Positions 29,437 to 36,271 of a stretch of 64,000 nucleotides of DNA are shown here, piece by piece; positions within the stretch are counted from its first letter, which is position 1; every line of letters begins with the position of its first letter. The position numbers and the translations under genes are program-made. Source of the DNA: Flavobacteriaceae bacterium (GTDB lineage Bacteria; Bacteroidota; Bacteroidia; Flavobacteriales; Flavobacteriaceae); assembly GCA_002862805.1 (NCBI GenBank), contig PKEA01000034.1, forward strand, positions 1 to 64,000. The letters run 5' to 3'. The notes beneath the pieces are model-generated. The model ran no database searches, was not told the DNA's origin, and saw nothing but the letters and a program-made list of their open reading frames with translations.

Positions 29437-29790
29437 TTAATCTAATCGCTCATACTTGCAGCAACTGTGCATTTTTTCGTAAACATCGTCTGGAGCCTTA
29501 ACTAAACTCGTATCATGTCCTACGCTTGCAATTGCTTTCGCTACATCTTCTTTTGAACATTTGTTTTCGTCGATATAAACGTGTATGTCTTGACAATCAA
29601 TATGCCACTCAGCACTTTTTACACCTTTAACTGAAAATGCAGCTTTTTCAATACGTTTTTCACACATTTCACAGTTTCCAGAAACCTTAATTATTACTTC
29701 TTTATTTTTACTTTTCTTTACACTTTTTTCTTGTGCTTGAGCTGCTATTCCAACAATTGACATAAGCAACACTAAAATTATTTTTTTCAT
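29437..29790 (-). CDS. Exported heavy-metal-associated (HMA) domain protein
   Basis: 117 residues. A signal peptide (MKKIILVLLMSIVGIAAQAQ) precedes an HMA/ferredoxin-like fold with the metal-binding CxxC in SGNCEMCEKRIEKAAF, and a VKSAEWHIDCQDIHVYID strand. The tail carries an extra Cys pair (HSCC). HMA domains bind copper or other soft metals; here the protein is probably periplasmic. It starts 19 bp after the TonB-dependent receptor gene and is cotranscribed with it. Confidence 0.85.
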   Translation of the reverse strand: MKKIILVLLMSIVGIAAQAQEKSVKKSKNKEVIIKVSGNCEMCEKRIEKAAFSVKGVKSAEWHIDCQDIHVYIDENKCSKEDVAKAIASVGHDTSLVKAPDDVYEKMHSCCKYERLD

Positions 29791-29809
29791 TTTTCTAATT
29801 ATTTAATTA

Positions 29810-32053
29810 TTATTTTATTTTAAATCTTAATCCTACATAATACATTGAACCAAAAGTTGGGCCATAAATCATGCTGCTATCAAAACTAGAACCAAAAGGA
29901 TTATCTGCACTTACAATAGCATTGTCTTGTTTGTAGTTACCAATATTTTCTCCGCCAGCATATATTTCAAATGTGCTTGAAAAAGTTCTTGTTATTTGCG
30001 CGTTGAAAACTGCAAATGAAGGTGCATATTCACCTAATTGATACTGAGGTAAATTAGTTGACGTGTTTGGCAATCTTTGTTCTCCTAACCAATTATAAGT
30101 AACATCAAATTTCCATTGTTGCCCTTTATCTAAAATGTGTGTTTGAAATGCTAAGTTAGCAAAAAATCTATTTTTAGCCTGAAGTGCTTTTTGAAGATTC
30201 CCAACACTATAATCAGTATTAACATCATAATATTTATAAGCTGTTTTTAAATTTAAATGCTTAATTAATTCAATATTGAATTCTGCTTGAAAGGAGTTGG
30301 CAACACTTTTCCCTTCTAAATTATAAAACAAAACTTGTTGCGGACTATTATCAATATCTACAACAGCTTGGTTTTGGAAATCAGTTACATAATAATCTAA
30401 AGCAATTTCAGAATCTTTACCAAACAATTTAAACGTTTGAGAAAAACTTAAACCATAATTCCATGCAATTTCGGGATTTAATCCATATAGTTTTCCACTA
30501 GTATTCAAGATTGAAAAATTACGAGATGACGCAAATAGGTTTTGGTTTTCGGCAAAAATATTCGCCGCTCTTTTCCCTCTTCCTGCCGAAGCTCTAATTA
30601 CTGAGTTTTCCCATGGGTTATATCTAATATGCAAACGAGGCGTTACAAAAGTTCCTAATCGATTATGATTATCAACTCTTGCTCCAGCAACTAAACTAAA
30701 GTTATCTAAATTATCATAAGTATATTCAAAAAAAGCTCCTATTGAGTTATCAACTCTTGAGAAATCTTTTGAAAAATTTAATCCTACAAATTCGTCATAA
30801 GCATCATAAGAAAAATTAATTCCGGTAGTGAACTTATTTTTTGTGTTACTAATTATTGAATTAAATAATAAATTAGAATAATAACTTTTTTGATGAATAT
30901 TGTATTGGTTTAAACCAAAATACGAATCTTGTTTATGCGATTGAAATGAATTTTGAAATCCGAAACTTTGATAAGGCATATCGGGAAAAACATAACCTGT
31001 TTTATTTGAAATTTCAATTTTTTCGGTATTAATTTCGCTTCCCCAGGCATTTGTAGTAAACTTATCTTTATCAGGATTAAAAGAAACTTCACCCGATTGT
31101 TTATCGTCTTTCATATAACGCACATTTAAGAAACTTACAATTCCTTTTTCTGCATCGTTATATTGCCAACGGTTTAAAATATTAACTTGTTTTCCAATTG
31201 GGTTATCCAAAAAACCATCGTTATTCATGTCATTTTTTACTTGTCGAGTATTTCCATGAATGAATAAAGTAGAACTTAACTTATCTGAATACTTTTGATT
31301 GAAATGCGTATTCAATTCGAATCTTCCTTCGGTTGAACCATAAATATTTACAAAAAAAGGAATATCTGTTGCTGGTTTTAGAATTTCATAATTAATTTGA
31401 CCCGAAATACTTTCGTAACCATTAATTACGCTTCCTGCACCTTTCGTAATTTGAATGCTTTCAACCCAAGTTCCTGGCACAAAAGACAATCCGTAAGCTT
31501 GTGATGCACCACGAACAGAAGGAATGTTTTCTTCGGCAATTAAAATATAAGGACTTGTTAAACCTAACATTTTAATTTGTTTGTTACCTGTAACAGCATC
31601 AGAAAAATTAACATCAATTGAAGGATTGGTTGAAAAACTTTCCGACAAATTACAACAAGCGGCTTTCAATAGTTCCTTTTGCCCCATCGTTTGAAGATTG
31701 ATAGAAGAAGTATAAGAATTTCTTGTACTCTTAACTGTTTTAGAAACTGTAACTTCATTTAAAGTTGTTAGTGCAACCAGTTTTATTTGTAAAGATGTTG
31801 AAGAAGTAACTTCAATTTTTTGAGTTTTAAAACCTATATAACTTACCAATAAGTTTTTTGTATCTGGTGATGTTTTAAGTGTAAACTTTCCGTTTTCATC
31901 GGAAGTTGTTCCAATAGAAGTTCCTTGCCAAAAGACATTAGCTCCCATTAATGGAATATTATCTTCATCTAAAATTGTTCCTTTAATTTCTGAATTTTGT
32001 GCGAACAATGATGATGAAATAAAGAGTAGCAATACTGCTATTTTTTTATACAT
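29810..32053 (-). CDS. TonB-dependent receptor, probably metal-related
   Basis: 747 residues. A signal peptide is followed by a carboxypeptidase-regulatory-like beta domain (EIKGTILDEDNIPLMGANVFWQG), a plug region (TSPYILIAEENIPSVRG, ITKGAGSVINGYESISG) and a long beta-barrel ending in LRFKIK. It imports or binds a substrate at the outer membrane using TonB energy. The neighbours (HMA protein, HYC_CC_PP protein) suggest a metal such as copper. The plug contains a Cys pair (KAACCNLSESFSTNPS), unusual for a plug domain. Substrate is inference. Confidence 0.88.
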   Translation of the reverse strand: MYKKIAVLLLFISSSLFAQNSEIKGTILDEDNIPLMGANVFWQGTSIGTTSDENGKFTLKTSPDTKNLLVSYIGFKTQKIEVTSSTSLQIKLVALTTLNEVTVSKTVKSTRNSYTSSINLQTMGQKELLKAACCNLSESFSTNPSIDVNFSDAVTGNKQIKMLGLTSPYILIAEENIPSVRGASQAYGLSFVPGTWVESIQITKGAGSVINGYESISGQINYEILKPATDIPFFVNIYGSTEGRFELNTHFNQKYSDKLSSTLFIHGNTRQVKNDMNNDGFLDNPIGKQVNILNRWQYNDAEKGIVSFLNVRYMKDDKQSGEVSFNPDKDKFTTNAWGSEINTEKIEISNKTGYVFPDMPYQSFGFQNSFQSHKQDSYFGLNQYNIHQKSYYSNLLFNSIISNTKNKFTTGINFSYDAYDEFVGLNFSKDFSRVDNSIGAFFEYTYDNLDNFSLVAGARVDNHNRLGTFVTPRLHIRYNPWENSVIRASAGRGKRAANIFAENQNLFASSRNFSILNTSGKLYGLNPEIAWNYGLSFSQTFKLFGKDSEIALDYYVTDFQNQAVVDIDNSPQQVLFYNLEGKSVANSFQAEFNIELIKHLNLKTAYKYYDVNTDYSVGNLQKALQAKNRFFANLAFQTHILDKGQQWKFDVTYNWLGEQRLPNTSTNLPQYQLGEYAPSFAVFNAQITRTFSSTFEIYAGGENIGNYKQDNAIVSADNPFGSSFDSSMIYGPTFGSMYYVGLRFKIK

Positions 32054-32060
32054 AAGTATT

Positions 32061-32110
32061 TAATTTAATGTTTTTATTTTCGATTAAATCGGAGTTAAAA
32101 CATTAAATTA
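32061..32110 (-). repeat. Inverted repeat between HYC_CC_PP and receptor genes
   Basis: A perfect 14-bp A/T-only arm pair (32061-32074 and 32097-32110) encloses a 22-base loop, which itself holds a short hairpin (CGATT/AATCG). It overlaps the HYC_CC_PP stop codon. No standard U-run, so perhaps a transcript processing or regulatory element. Confidence 0.55.
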
Positions 32111-32515
32111 AGCGTATAAAACTAATTGGCAATATAGTTTGTAAAAGGGTGGCGCGTGTGAATCGCAATAAAACGAAATGATTTCTTTTTTAGAAACAAA
32201 ATCATTCTTTTTAATTGGCAATACTGTTTTACATTGTGTAAAATAAACAGCATTAAAGTCAATTTTAGAATAATGAGACAAGAAATTATCATTCTTTTCT
32301 TGTGCTTTAATTATTTTGTTTGAACAACAAGAATCATGTGTTTTTTCAACCTTACAACAAGATTTTACATCTTCAATACAAATTTCTTCAACTTGAGTTG
32401 TAAATGAAACACCTGCAATTTTATCTTTACAATAATGCACATTAATAGCCAATCCTAAATTTGAGAATAGGATTAATATAGCTAAAAATAAAGTGGTGCT
32501 TTTTCTAAATTGCAT
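32108..32515 (-). CDS. HYC_CC_PP family protein
   Basis: 135 residues. It has an N-terminal hydrophobic signal (TTLFLAILILFSNLGLAINV), then the family-defining HYC (NVHYCKDKIAG), a CC-rich segment (KSCCKVEKTHDSCC) and a PP near the C-terminus (SHAPPFYKLYCQ). The name is the one used for this Bacteroidota family; its function is unknown. Eight or more cysteines plus the HMA and TonB genes downstream suggest metal handling. The promoter lies so close (box ends 5 bp before the ATG) that the message may be leaderless. Confidence 0.8.
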   Translation of the reverse strand: MQFRKSTTLFLAILILFSNLGLAINVHYCKDKIAGVSFTTQVEEICIEDVKSCCKVEKTHDSCCSNKIIKAQEKNDNFLSHYSKIDFNAVYFTQCKTVLPIKKNDFVSKKEIISFYCDSHAPPFYKLYCQLVLYA

Positions 32516-32558: not shown

Positions 32559-33914
32559 CTAAATTTCAATAACTTGACCCAAATAAGGTACAACACAATC
32601 GAAATTATATTTTTCTTGTATTTTAATACGAAGCTCATCTGAAGCCATATTTTCTCCATGAACTAAAAATATTTTTTTAGGTTTTTCAGTCAAATCACTC
32701 AACCAATCTAAAAGATCTTTTTGATCTCCATGTGCAGATAAACCTTCAATTAAAAATACAGAAGCATTTACCTCATAATATTTTCCATACATTTTTATTT
32801 CTTTTGCACCTTCTAATAATTTTCTTCCACGCGTTCCTTCTGCTTGATAACCTACTAATAAAACTGAGTTTTCAGGTTTAGAGATATATCTTTCTAAATA
32901 AGACAAAACTCTCCCTCCAGTTATCATTCCGCTAGCAGCGATAATAACTTTAGGTTGCTTATCATAAATGGTTTCTATTGTGTCTTTATAATCAGAAATT
33001 AATGTAAACATACTACACATTTCTTCACATTCTTCAAAATTTAACTTATGCCATTTTCTATTTTCTTGAAAAACCTTCAAAACACTTATTCCCATTGGAG
33101 TATCAATAATATAAGGAATATTAGGAATTCTGTCTTGTTTTTTAAGTTGCCAAAGTAAGTACATAACTGTTTGCACTCGTTCTACGGCAAAACTAGGAAT
33201 TACAACATTTCCTTTCTTTTGAAATGTATTATTAATTAACATCTCTAAATCAAATAAAGGATCGTTATTTGGATGCAAACGATTTCCATAAGTACTTTCT
33301 ATAAAAACATAATCTGCTTTTTTAGGCTTTATTGGAGGAAATAGCAACACATCATCATCTTGACCAACATCTCCTGAAAAAACTAATATTTCATTATTGA
33401 CTTGTAAAGAAATTGAACAAGCGCCTAAAATATGCGAAGCATAGAAAAATGAAAAATAAATATCATCAGTTATTTTTATATCTAAATCAGGTTCTACAAC
33501 TCTAAACAACGGAATTACTTTATTAACATCTTCAACCGTATAAAGCGGAATTGCAGGTTCGTGCTTTGAATACTTCTCTTTATTAGCACGTTCGGCTTCT
33601 TCTTCTTGAATTTTAGCACTATCATACATAATTAACCTCGCAATTTCTTTTGTAGGTGCAGTACAAAATATTTTTCCCGTAAAACCATCATTTACTAATT
33701 TAGGCAACCAACCGCAATGATCTAAATGACCATGAGTTAAAATAACATAATCAATATTTTCTGGGTTATAAGCTAAAGGTTCTCTATTTAATTCTCTTAG
33801 CATTTTAATTCCTTGAAACAATCCACAATCTATTAAAATAGAAGTTTCATCTGTCTCTACTAAAAATTTAGAACCTGTTACAGTTCCGGCAGCACCTAAA
33901 AAATGAATTTTCAT
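32559..33914 (-). CDS. Beta-CASP metallo-beta-lactamase-fold nuclease
   Basis: 451 residues. The MBL metal motif HGHLDH is at residues 61-66, with further ligands in ASHILGACS and GDVGQ. The beta-CASP/RNA-specificity region includes FIESTYGNRLHP, VIPSFAVERVQTVMYLL and GMITGGRV, and the C-terminal SAHGD. Family members (YSH1/CPSF73, RNase J-like) process RNA. No KH domain, so it is unlike archaeal CPSF. It overlaps the upstream ATP-cone gene by 4 bp (ATGA), showing translational coupling. Its RNA target is unknown. Confidence 0.92.
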   Translation of the reverse strand: MKIHFLGAAGTVTGSKFLVETDETSILIDCGLFQGIKMLRELNREPLAYNPENIDYVILTHGHLDHCGWLPKLVNDGFTGKIFCTAPTKEIARLIMYDSAKIQEEEAERANKEKYSKHEPAIPLYTVEDVNKVIPLFRVVEPDLDIKITDDIYFSFFYASHILGACSISLQVNNEILVFSGDVGQDDDVLLFPPIKPKKADYVFIESTYGNRLHPNNDPLFDLEMLINNTFQKKGNVVIPSFAVERVQTVMYLLWQLKKQDRIPNIPYIIDTPMGISVLKVFQENRKWHKLNFEECEEMCSMFTLISDYKDTIETIYDKQPKVIIAASGMITGGRVLSYLERYISKPENSVLLVGYQAEGTRGRKLLEGAKEIKMYGKYYEVNASVFLIEGLSAHGDQKDLLDWLSDLTEKPKKIFLVHGENMASDELRIKIQEKYNFDCVVPYLGQVIEI

Positions 33915-34744
33915 AATTGTGTATTTAAGAGTTGATTACATTCTTTTTGAACGTTTTTTAACCTAGATTGACTAAGTTTTAATTTTGCAAAACTATTTTT
34001 ATCATGGATTAAATTATAAACTGTTAAAACATCTTGTAACAAAAGCACTTCTTTTTCTGCAATTGTTAAAGTTGTTAGACATGTTATTGGATAAACTCTA
34101 TATTGTTTTACAATATCTTTTAATCCGTTACCTATTGGGTAATCCCAACTTAAGAGCGATAAACCAGAACATTCTCCAAACTTAATTGCTTCGGAAGTAA
34201 ATTTATTATTGGTAACCAACCAACATTTAGAAATAAAATCATTTGAGGAGAAATGATTGATTTTGGTTGTTTTTAAGTCGTTAAACCTTGATAAAATATA
34301 CATCGGAATTTTTACATCAGTCTTCACTTCTTGGCTTCCATGAAATTTACATTCAACCATTGCTACATGATCGTTTTTTTTAATTAAAACATCCATTTCA
34401 TGCGAAGTACATTTTCCCTCTAAAAAAACATTTGTAACAGTTGTATAACCTTGAAGTTCAAATAATCTTGAAATAAATTTTTCAAAATAAAAACCAGCCG
34501 GACCAAGCGCCATGATTCCATTTTTTAATCCGTATCGGGCAGCATGAGCTTTGGAAATAGTTTTAAGTTTTTGAAAAGCTAGTTTGTAAATTTTCTTAGA
34601 AGGAATTCCTTCATAAAGTTGAGGCTGAATTTCTTTTAGTATTTCTTTTGCCGTTTGAACATCAGCTCCAGAAGAAACCATTGATTTAATTAGTTTTTCT
34701 TCATTAAAATTGACTATTTCACCCGAGAATTTTCTAACTTTCAT
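33911..34744 (-). CDS. ATP-cone fused to an Mrr-like PD-(D/E)XK nuclease
   Basis: 277 residues. The N-terminus (about 1-80) is an ATP-cone: VRKFSGEIVNFNEEKLIKSMVSSG and a helical end with RYGLKNGIMALG. ATP-cones sense nucleotides, as in ribonucleotide reductase and NrdR, but neither lies nearby. Residues 80-230 form an Mrr-type nuclease with Glu88, Asp118 (SHEMDVLI) and Glu131-x-Lys133 (VECKFH), the PD-(D/E)XK pattern, apparently intact. A helical tail follows. Translationally coupled to the beta-CASP nuclease. Physiological role is unknown. Confidence 0.8.
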   Translation of the reverse strand: MKVRKFSGEIVNFNEEKLIKSMVSSGADVQTAKEILKEIQPQLYEGIPSKKIYKLAFQKLKTISKAHAARYGLKNGIMALGPAGFYFEKFISRLFELQGYTTVTNVFLEGKCTSHEMDVLIKKNDHVAMVECKFHGSQEVKTDVKIPMYILSRFNDLKTTKINHFSSNDFISKCWLVTNNKFTSEAIKFGECSGLSLLSWDYPIGNGLKDIVKQYRVYPITCLTTLTIAEKEVLLLQDVLTVYNLIHDKNSFAKLKLSQSRLKNVQKECNQLLNTQL

Positions 34745-34768: not shown

Positions 34769-35203
34769 TTAGTGATTTATTTTGTTTTTTTGATAATAAA
34801 ATGCAGGAATAAACAAAACCAAAAGTACAGGTTGTATTAAAAACCTTCTTATGTAAAATAGAATCATATAATCTGGATTCTCTGAATACAAATAGGTAAA
34901 AAAAGAAATGATTAAAATTAAACTAATAAATACATACAAATAGACTGCAATTTTTAAAATGGCCTTATCTGAAAACAATTTATAAATTATAAATATAGAC
35001 AGTAAAGAATTTATAGAATATCTAAATAAAAGATTTGAAAATAATTTAACAGAATCAAAATTTGGCAAAGACTTATGAAAATACTCTGATTTATAAAATG
35101 CAATAAAGGGATCGTAAAATATTTTAGTTTCAAAAGCCCTTATACTAGCTAATAAAACAAATGCTAAACCAATTAAAAATATACTTAGCTTATTTTTAAT
35201 CAT
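34769..35203 (-). CDS. Exosortase F system-associated protein
   Basis: 144 residues with four hydrophobic segments and little else. Its size, layout and position directly after XrtF (8-bp overlap) match the exosortase F-associated membrane proteins of Flavobacteriia. Sequence conservation in that family is low, so the call relies mainly on context. Confidence 0.8.
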   Translation of the reverse strand: MIKNKLSIFLIGLAFVLLASIRAFETKIFYDPFIAFYKSEYFHKSLPNFDSVKLFSNLLFRYSINSLLSIFIIYKLFSDKAILKIAVYLYVFISLILIISFFTYLYSENPDYMILFYIRRFLIQPVLLVLFIPAFYYQKNKINH

Positions 35204-35747
35204 CTTTTCTATTGTTTCCTGAAAATTTCAAAACCCACCCTATCCACAATAAAAAAACCACACCATATATGAATAACGGAAATACTGTTCCGTGTAATAA
35301 TTCCTCGTAATCTGGATAATAATATAAAGAGTAAGTTAAAAGTGCAATTCTGACAATGTTTAAAACATAAATAAGTATAACTCCTAAAATAATATATAAA
35401 AACGTTTTTTTTATGGTACTTGAAAAGGCAAAAATAAAAGCTGCAAATAGAATTATTACACTAACAGCATTACAGCCTTCTATAATTCTAGACACATATT
35501 TACCTTTATAAAATATTTTAATTGAAGGCTCAAACTCATGATTAACAAGTTTACTATCCTGTTTTAAAAAAAGTAAAAAATCATTTGTATTATGAGCTAC
35601 TAAAGTAGAAATTGAATCTACCTCATTTAACATAGGGTTATACTGGTTTAAATATTGCCTATAAATAAAAGTAAAAACCATATAAAAAAGTAAAAACTTA
35701 ATAAGGAATATAAAAAAAAGCTTATGTTGTAACAATAAAGATCTCAA
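35196..35747 (-). CDS. xrtF: Exosortase XrtF
   Basis: About 183 residues with several transmembrane segments. The exosortase catalytic residues are visible: Cys in IIEGCNAVS, Arg in LNIVRIALL and His in EELLHGTVFP. Exosortases are transpeptidase-like enzymes that process C-terminal sorting signals. There is no in-frame ATG near the 5' end. A TTG at 35747 lies 16 nt after a TATTTTTG box, giving a short leader, so it is preferred; the frame continues to a TTG at 35834 but would overlap the divergent GAF gene. No sorting-signal substrate is seen in this window. Confidence 0.85.
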   Translation of the reverse strand: MRSLLLQHKLFFIFLIKFLLFYMVFTFIYRQYLNQYNPMLNEVDSISTLVAHNTNDFLLFLKQDSKLVNHEFEPSIKIFYKGKYVSRIIEGCNAVSVIILFAAFIFAFSSTIKKTFLYIILGVILIYVLNIVRIALLTYSLYYYPDYEELLHGTVFPLFIYGVVFLLWIGWVLKFSGNNRKDD

Positions 35748-35762
35748 TTCTTCTATTTTTAA

Positions 35763-35770
35763 CAAAAATA
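35763..35770 (-). promoter_or_regulatory. Putative -7 box of xrtF
   Basis: Minus-strand TATTTTTG (TAnnTTTG) sits 16 nt upstream of the TTG start. It faces away from the TACTTTTG box of the divergent GAF gene, 27 bp further along. Confidence 0.45.
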
Positions 35771-35796
35771 TATAAATTTTTAAACTATAGATTAAA

Positions 35797-35804
35797 TACT
35801 TTTG
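35797..35804 (+). promoter_or_regulatory. Putative -7 box of the GAF gene
   Basis: TACTTTTG matches TAnnTTTG and ends 14 bp before the ATG at 35819, predicting a leader of about 9 nt. Confidence 0.55.
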
Positions 35805-35818
35805 TAAAAAAATTGAAA

Positions 35819-36271
35819 ATGAATTCAGAAGCAATATTACAAACTGTAAATACCATTGTTATTAGTGACTCTACAAGAGATGAGAAATTACTAAGTATTT
35901 GCAAACTATTAAACGAAAATATAGAATATTATAATTGGGTTGGTTTTTATTTTGCCAATCACGAAACTAAAACATTGCATTTAGGACCATATGTAGGAGC
36001 AGAAACTGACCATACAGTTATTCCATTTGGAAAAGGTATTTGCGGACAAGTAGCAGTTTCAAATGAAAACTTCGTCGTTCCAGATGTATCTGCACAAGAT
36101 AATTATATTGCTTGTAGCTTCACGGTTAAGTCAGAAATTGTTGTGCCATTATTTGTAAATGGAATAAACATAGGTCAAATAGATATTGACTCTCATGTAA
36201 TTAATCCATTTACCGAAGCTGACGAATTACTATTACAATCTATAAATCAAGAAGTTGCAAAATTATTTTAA
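35819..36271 (+). CDS. GAF-domain protein, probable free methionine-(R)-sulfoxide reductase
   Basis: 150 residues, a single GAF domain. The catalytic set fits the fRMsr family: Cys75 in GKGICGQ, Cys99 in YIACS, Glu106 in KSEIVVPL and Asp124 in GQIDIDS. The spacings (24, 7, 18) match those of E. coli MsrC residues Cys94, Cys118, Glu125 and Asp143 as I recall them. The MsrC Cys84 equivalent is absent (His65 here). It would reduce free methionine-R-sulfoxide with thioredoxin. The ATG at 35819 is used; a TTG at 35813 is also in frame. Confidence 0.8.
   Translation: MNSEAILQTVNTIVISDSTRDEKLLSICKLLNENIEYYNWVGFYFANHETKTLHLGPYVGAETDHTVIPFGKGICGQVAVSNENFVVPDVSAQDNYIACSFTVKSEIVVPLFVNGINIGQIDIDSHVINPFTEADELLLQSINQEVAKLF

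Follow-up and report, generated by a model that had tools for sequence, protein, structure and literature searches.

How does a starving bacterium decide to consume its own RNA, and which nuclease starts? To our knowledge, this is largely open. Two overlapping genes in a stretch of 64,000 nucleotides from a Flavobacteriaceae bacterium (contig PKEA01000034.1; the whole stretch is called the window below) raise this question. The upstream gene, termed here the cone gene (33911..34744, minus strand), is an open reading frame (ORF) of 277 aa with an ATG start for a putative ATP-cone/PD-(D/E)XK nuclease of the Mrr and AF1548-like kind. The downstream gene (32559..33914, minus strand) is an ORF of 451 aa, also with an ATG start, for a putative beta-CASP metallo-beta-lactamase (MBL) RNase similar to TTHA0252 and CPSF73. 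The stop codon of the first and the start codon of the second share the four bases 33911..33914 (minus strand), which read TCAT on the plus strand, i.e. ATGA (gap -4). A preliminary description of this DNA had reported both ORFs and their 4 bp overlap, and both were confirmed on the minus strand. We tentatively propose, with a confidence just short of even, that the pair comprises a nucleotide-gated nuclease and a partner RNase that would break down RNA under energy stress.

The cone protein is predicted to consist of a sensor and a nuclease. Its AlphaFold2 model (20-row alignment) has a mean predicted local distance difference test score (pLDDT) of 93.8. In this model, the N-terminal region (residues 1-75; 34520..34744, minus strand) has the fold of an ATP-cone. 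Residues 1-77 superimpose on NrdR (9fvr_C) with Z 10.0 and a root-mean-square deviation (rmsd) of 1.6 over 76 residues at 28% identity. The NrdR and ribonucleotide reductase (RNR) ATP-cones among the matches shown reach Z about 9-11 with rmsd 1.4-2.1, most of them spanning residues 1 to 73-77, and several RNR R1 chains score Z about 9-10. In NrdR and RNR the modelled fold is the same, but here the cone precedes a nuclease. The Pfam match to ATP-cone (PF03477, residues 1-69) is borderline for the protein alone (23.8 bits, cut-off 25.8); it amounts to 26.1 bits in the genome search and to 36.2 bits in a relative from Criblamydia. Among 148 distinct cone proteins, K5 is present in 145, G8 in 146, K17 in 143 and T or S at position 49 in all 148. 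According to the accessible part of one study, the ATP-cone of RNR weighs ATP against dATP (PMC4390871).

The nuclease domain follows at about residues 81-217 (34094..34504, minus strand). The cone protein matches Pfam Mrr_cat (PF04471) with 29.5 bits (cut-off 21), whereas PF22357, the C-terminal domain of AF1548-like proteins, remains below its cut-off of 23.9 with 15.3 bits (23.6 bits in the Criblamydia relative). AF1548 from Archaeoglobus (PDB 1Y88) is the single solved structure matched by sequence (phmmer, E 3.6e-23). Its resemblance to the model extends beyond the nuclease domain into the C-terminal region (Z 22.7, 183 of 184 residues, range 81-276, 28% identity), but the solved chain aligns only from residue 81 onwards and holds no ATP-cone. 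A nuclease function with D, E and K as catalytic residues was predicted for AF1548 in 2007, as far as the accessible text of that report goes (PMC1821046). E88, D118, E131, C132 and K133 are kept in 148/148 distinct cone proteins retrieved, paired or unpaired. By profile and residues, the cone protein is therefore assigned to the PD-(D/E)XK nuclease family. The fusion of an ATP-cone to an intact-looking PD-(D/E)XK nuclease with Glu88, Asp118 and Glu131-x-Lys133, as described previously, thus stands; a lack of these residues in most homologues, which would have spoken against the module idea, was not observed among the 148. Mrr restriction enzymes carry an N-terminal winged-helix domain ahead of the catalytic domain. 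An identity with Mrr was rejected, since the N-terminus is an ATP-cone and no Mrr winged helix.

The 451 aa protein contains the Pfam domains Lactamase_B, Beta-Casp and RMMBL, all well above their cut-offs, and the HGHLDH motif, so that the earlier assignment to the MBL-fold nucleases was corroborated. H63, D65, H66, H161, D182, E206, H395 and H419 are kept in 115/115 RNases compared, and H61 is kept with one gap. Domains and motif residues identify it as a predicted beta-CASP RNase of the TTHA0252/CPSF73 type, and the active sites of both partners appear intact. The best PDB matches are Cas14 (8yhd, E 8.4e-68) and TTHA0252 from Thermus thermophilus (2dkf, E 8.8e-61). The match to TTHA0252 covers residues 2-422 with MBL, beta-CASP and RMMBL domains. 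TTHA0252 is a 5'-3' exo-RNase and probably also an endo-RNase; it shapes the levels of many mRNAs, and its disruption alters many mRNAs. In contrast to our pair, a nuclease partner is not mentioned in the accessible part of that paper (PMC4229858).

From these parts, we infer the following mechanism. The N-terminal ATP-cone would read the level of ATP (or ATP:dATP) and switch the nuclease behind it. Falling energy would open the gate, and the pair would degrade cellular RNA to mononucleotides, with the cone nuclease making the first cuts and the TTHA0252-type RNase trimming or completing them. Placed ahead of a nuclease, an ATP-cone would most simply yield an enzyme that responds to energy or dNTP level. 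We favour a gated first-cut nuclease with an RNase because the RNR ATP-cone weighs ATP against dATP and because TTHA0252 is an RNase. If true, a nuclease with its own ATP sensor and a dedicated RNase would directly link energy level and RNA decay. The ATP-cone, so far the allosteric switch of RNR and NrdR, would be extended to nucleic-acid breakdown, and a gene labelled only 'ATP cone domain-containing protein' in plasmid records would obtain a function.

Does the cone nuclease act on RNA at all? It might be a nucleotide-gated DNA nuclease for quality control, repair or clearance of foreign DNA, with which the beta-CASP enzyme would act on DNA or RNA:DNA hybrids. An ATP:dATP sensor suits a DNA-linked enzyme, and several DNA enzymes are among the closest structural matches that follow AF1548, namely AspBHI, a repair endonuclease from Pyrococcus, MspJI and EndoMS (Z 10-12). 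However, the nuclease half, within residues 72-240, resembles AspBHI, EndoMS and the effectors Can2 and Card1 at Z about 9-12. Since the scores of Can2 and Card1 are similar to those of the DNA enzymes, the fold does not decide between RNA and DNA. The partner is of the TTHA0252/CPSF73 type with RMMBL, and in some relatives this RNase is encoded beside nucleotide-salvage genes, both of which argue against DNA. We consider a DNA nuclease unlikely.

A sensor nuclease and a partner RNase for RNA breakdown should belong together in other genomes, too. Conservation was analysed in two samples. The first comprised 60 relatives from genus and order, the window's own genome included, and the RNase was found in 26 of them at E 1e-60. 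All 25 RNase places with at least 54% identity lie just downstream of a cone gene on the same strand (gaps of -11 to 112 bases); those at 44% identity (G042, G055) have no cone nearby. Among the 37 genomes of the genus, both genes occur in 23, neither in 12 and only divergent cones in 2, while the RNase alone occurs in none. The second sample consisted of 296 genomes drawn evenly from the phylum of the window. A cone match was found in 50 of them, one being a weak match to the nuclease only, and some beta-CASP protein in 189 at E 1e-60. Adjacency was assessed for the 46 RNase places with at least 500 bits: 33/33 with at least 627 bits lie downstream of a same-strand cone, compared to 0/13 with 503-617 bits. 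These scores lean to the cone-linked type, because eight of the ten rows of the search profile (A3) are cone-linked. The distance between the two genes is within 61 bases as aligned in 32 of the 33 cases and 327 in one. Among these genomes, the similarity of an RNase to the cone-linked type predicted an adjacent cone in every case. The preliminary description had made its module idea depend on joint conservation, which was found for the best RNase places in the phylum (33/33) as well as in genus and order (25/25).

The converse does not hold. The cone search in the phylum draw yielded 60 rows, six of which were dropped, namely three second ATP-cones, the second part of one broken frame and two weak nuclease-only matches. 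Of the remaining 54 cones, 33 are paired, whereas 21 lack a neighbouring RNase of this type. Among the plasmid RNase matches listed, a cone accompanies the two at 51-52% identity, and all others have at most 45%. The dependence is one-sided: The RNase goes where the cone goes, and the cone also lives without the RNase. This fits a sensor nuclease with an optional helper RNase.

Phylogenetic trees complement these counts. In a tree of 115 distinct RNases calculated with a quick method, all cone-linked ones fall into a clade of 96 (support 98 in the Shimodaira-Hasegawa-like approximate likelihood ratio test, SH-aLRT), and 19 cone-less ones lie outside, several of them on long branches with unsure placement. 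In the clade, 93 members are labelled paired, one (L107) has one gene between, one (L111) a cone three genes upstream, and in one (L110) the cone is cut by a contig end. Most rows were fetched via their cone and are linked by construction, and 13 cone-less rows were chosen from the beta-CASP search in the phylum. The clade therefore indicates one origin of the RNase type and is not a proof of linkage. In the cone tree, the label paired or unpaired changes 17 times, 9-10 of these changes being forced by starred branches. Mere synteny by descent in one genus was rejected as explanation for the pair, as it persists in other families and where the neighbours have changed: It is intact with different neighbours at L044 in the same genus, at L041, a second copy in the genus, and at L045 in another family.

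Alternatively, the two genes might only be co-transcribed, i.e. encode two enzymes that serve RNA turnover or stress separately under common regulation, neither forming a complex nor acting on a common substrate. The spacing of 233-456 bp in 20 of 94 distinct pairs, a small gene for an 84 aa protein between the two in 19 of the 80 relatives' loci discussed below, and the frequent life of cones without RNase are compatible with this. Against it stands the finding that, searched from the RNase side, this RNase type was never seen without an adjacent cone, which is more than shared regulation asks for. Co-transcription alone is thus quite unlikely.

The energy stress in our proposal, a gated nuclease with a partner RNase, derives from the neighbourhood of the pair in relatives. 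The loci designated L056-L135 are the best 80 of at least 588 relatives of an island-type cone, and their gene clusters were named from one scanned representative each. The RNase is the next gene after the cone in 30 of them, lies one gene further on in 21 and elsewhere in 2, and is absent or not callable in 27; L123 was wrongly assigned to the class with one gene between, as its RNase belongs to a second pair on the other strand, and L108 gave no cone ORF. By clustering, a P-type ATPase was found in 50 loci, Usp in 44, class I aldolase in 26, type II glyceraldehyde-3-phosphate dehydrogenase (GAPDH) in 25, 2-hydroxyacid dehydrogenase in 23, a nucleoside monophosphate (NMP)/thymidine-phosphorylase-like protein in 23, a phosphoribosyl pyrophosphate (PRPP)-synthetase-like protein in 22 and phosphofructokinase in 17. 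In addition, Hsp20, a PAS histidine kinase, a response-regulator-Crp protein and PPK2 are encoded there. Among 13 control loci around cone-less beta-CASPs, none holds two or more of nine island marker genes, and one holds 2-hydroxyacid dehydrogenase. One branch has a genuine link to stress and fermentation islands, which is missing around the pair of the window itself. The 84 aa protein mentioned above (e.g. L057 8882-9136) has no Pfam match and ends with CCGGH. None of the 80 loci combines an AAA_28 P-loop kinase gene (present in 15) with the phosphorylase/PRPP-synthetase genes (present in 23), which corresponds to P 0.003 if relatedness is ignored; it is possible that the former replaces the latter functionally.

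Similar gene sets occur on plasmids. The cone protein was matched in 2 of 72,556 plasmid records, from Criblamydia sequanensis (Chlamydiota) and Pontibacter actiniarum. The Criblamydia run comprises a P-type ATPase, phosphoketolase, alpha-glucan phosphorylase, the cone protein, the MBL RNase, a thymidine phosphorylase family protein, ribose-phosphate pyrophosphokinase and acetate kinase. That of Pontibacter comprises 2-hydroxyacid dehydrogenase, the cone protein, the MBL RNase, a phosphorylase and a pyrophosphokinase. Inside the island branch of the RNase tree, the Criblamydia RNase groups with one from Cyclobacteriaceae (support 97), which suggests transfer. On proteobacterial plasmids, the same phosphorylase and pyrophosphokinase accompany a related RNase that does not belong to the cone clade. 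Among the best 60 RNase matches (of 223 plasmid records), 31 come from a record that also contains one of the 37 phosphorylase matches compared; in at least 28 of the 60, both cone plasmids included, the phosphorylase lies within 1.5 kb on the same strand, and one of the remaining three extends across the start point of a circular record. The phosphorylase is encoded without an intact RNase beside it on plasmids from a Dysgonomonadaceae bacterium, Sphingobium and Pacificitalea.

The phosphorylase matches PRK04350 and TIGR02645 in NCBIfam; AMP phosphorylase ranks third with 495 bits, below its cut-off of 535. Archaeal NMP phosphorylase converts NMPs to ribose-1,5-bisphosphate, as the accessible part of one paper states (PMC9700705). 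The enzyme PhnN is a ribose 1,5-bisphosphokinase that turns ribose-1,5-bisphosphate into PRPP. On the Pacificitalea plasmid, PhnN is fused to an NMP-phosphorylase-like domain (L191 5350-7476). The predicted functions suggest a route in relatives from RNA via NMP and ribose-1,5-bisphosphate to PRPP or ribose-5-phosphate and on to fermentation. Where the island of a relative also encodes NMP phosphorylase, PRPP synthetase and fermentation enzymes, ribose from the nucleotides set free would enter energy metabolism. Three genomes (G208, G306, G342) have a second ATP-cone at the start of another long frame directly downstream of the cone nuclease. In G208 (L166 6351-7886, plus strand), where this frame was scanned whole, the ATP-cone (30.3 bits, over the cut-off) precedes a putative glucoamylase (PF10091, 288.5 bits). 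This suggests that ATP-cones may serve as gates on polymer-degrading enzymes.

A more far-reaching version of our proposal, which we regard as doubtful, would be an energy-charge switch. As ATP falls, ribosomal and messenger RNA would be degraded to mononucleotides, and the NMP phosphorylase, PRPP synthetase, phosphoketolase or glycolytic enzymes and acetate kinase of the islands would make ATP from the ribose. The pathway would be portable and have moved on plasmids between Bacteroidota and Chlamydiota, with the same ATP-cone grafted on a glycan-degrading enzyme.

Several points weigh against the proposed role in RNA breakdown under energy stress. Many PD-(D/E)XK enzymes cut DNA. The 21 of 54 cones without an RNase imply that the cone nuclease must also be useful by itself. 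The mirror-tree correlation of the two proteins (r 0.90, 94 pairs) was not corrected for host relatedness, which alone could give this value, and is therefore not counted as support. By stricter BLAST markers, 47 of the 80 named loci carry at least two of the nine island genes, a number that overstates the island link because these loci were chosen for their similarity to a cone of the island type. In a less biased, hand-picked set from phylum draw and relatives, one member of which holds only a weak cone match, at least two markers are present in 5 of 18 loci and type II GAPDH in 7. None of eight solo-cone loci of relatives holds two or more markers, and none of the 12 loci with the pair type of the window's genus (termed genus-core) holds any of the nine. 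Furthermore, no match to NMP phosphorylase was found in the window's genome (97.5% complete), where the nucleotides would have to go to ordinary salvage. As the window's pair lies outside a stress island and its genome gave no match to this enzyme, the function proposed for it is carried over from relatives.

The preliminary description had named stress response or defence as possible roles. Stress agrees with the neighbours of many relatives, albeit not with the window's own, whereas defence found no support. The cone protein had no match in 50,697 phage records, no contig was confirmed among 42 candidate stretches from IMG/VR, and the best PADLOC matches of both proteins (22.3 and 21.7 bits) cover partial stretches, none of them convincing. 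A role in defence was rejected on these three grounds, and an assignment to a known anti-phage defence system on the PADLOC matches. An antiviral sensor nuclease that answers phage-made shifts of the nucleotide pool is highly improbable, for although it would share the plan of ligand sensor and PD-(D/E)XK domain with the CARF effectors Can2 and Card1, has a weak PADLOC match to CARF_PDDEXK (21.7 bits) and belongs to a pair present in 23 of 37 genus genomes and thus not universal, neither phage records nor IMG/VR provided a confirmed carrier, the annotated neighbours are metabolic or stress genes (PADLOC was run on the two proteins alone), and the chromosomal position is the same in 8 of the 9 genus-core loci that were compared.

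How does the pair, read as gated nuclease and partner RNase, differ from known systems? Can2, Card1 and Cdn1 also combine a sensor for a nucleotide ligand with a PD-(D/E)XK nuclease (nuclease half Z about 10), but their sensor is CARF instead of an ATP-cone, and no CRISPR link was seen here. Cas14 of type VII CRISPR has a similar beta-CASP nuclease core (NCBIfam NF045584, 411.8 bits). Identity with Cas14 was rejected, as this score is about half of the cut-off of 800 and only positions 1-435 of 612 are matched; moreover, no Cas gene was annotated among the neighbours. The proteobacterial plasmid genes for MBL beta-CASP, thymidine (NMP) phosphorylase and PRPP synthetase encode an RNase with 40-45% identity beside a phosphorylase that is also present in Bacteroidota islands; in contrast, the four records viewed contain no cone gene, and their RNases lie outside the cone-linked clade. 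A literature search that covered few subscription papers found nothing joining ATP cone and beta-CASP. In the parts of the sources accessible, nothing on this pair was found for ATP-cone with restriction endonuclease or AF1548, no report combined the island genes, and ATP-cone with nuclease domain gave only NrdR. Likewise, searches for beta-CASP with thymidine phosphorylase or ATP-cone with glucoamylase found no paper joining them. The parts belong to known families. New, as far as this search goes, is the proposed sensor nuclease with a dedicated RNase, which is set apart from CARF effectors by its sensor and from Cas14 by length and context.

The surroundings of the pair in the window are of a different kind. 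Among the ORFs beside it, no RNR, NrdR or methyltransferase gene is evident, as had been noticed before, and the other two ATP-cone places of this genome lie on different contigs in frames of 713 and 807 aa. A search of this genome for PF22357 matched no place, the controls included, and is therefore uninformative. Scans of the window for regulatory signals were uninformative: The TAnnTTTG promoter motif occurs at chance level (113 found, 121 expected), sigma-70-like sites number 32 (27.8 expected), and terminator-like sites were not found. The gene for an exosortase F system-associated membrane protein (34769..35203, minus strand; TIGR04127, 144.4 bits, cut-off 35) ends 24 bp upstream of the cone gene on the same strand. 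It is preceded by the gene for the exosortase family protein XrtF (35196..35834, minus strand; TIGR04128, 211.8 bits, cut-off 90). Both genes (34769-35834, minus strand) run straight into the cone gene and may share a transcript with it, with xrtF as a possible head of the operon.

To judge by its relatives and by the family names of the neighbouring genes, the genus of the window is probably Flavobacterium. Eight of the nine genus-core loci compared, among them the window, have these neighbours of the pair in common: the genes for XrtF and its membrane protein, pnp, and two genes that are presumably a GAF-like gene and rpsO. XrtF, its neighbour and pnp were named by family search, the first two with NCBIfam cut-offs. 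NMP phosphorylase is encoded in 5 of the 37 genus genomes beside a PRPP synthetase gene and not beside the pair. On the other side of the pair, a gene for an HYC_CC_PP family protein (32108..32515, minus strand; NF047658, 124.5 bits, cut-off 28) follows 43 bp downstream of the RNase gene on the same strand and was excluded from the module. Together with genes for a small CxxC protein and a TonB-receptor-like protein, it forms a trio (29437-32515, minus strand) that is kept in most genus-core loci compared and is possibly a metal-uptake set.

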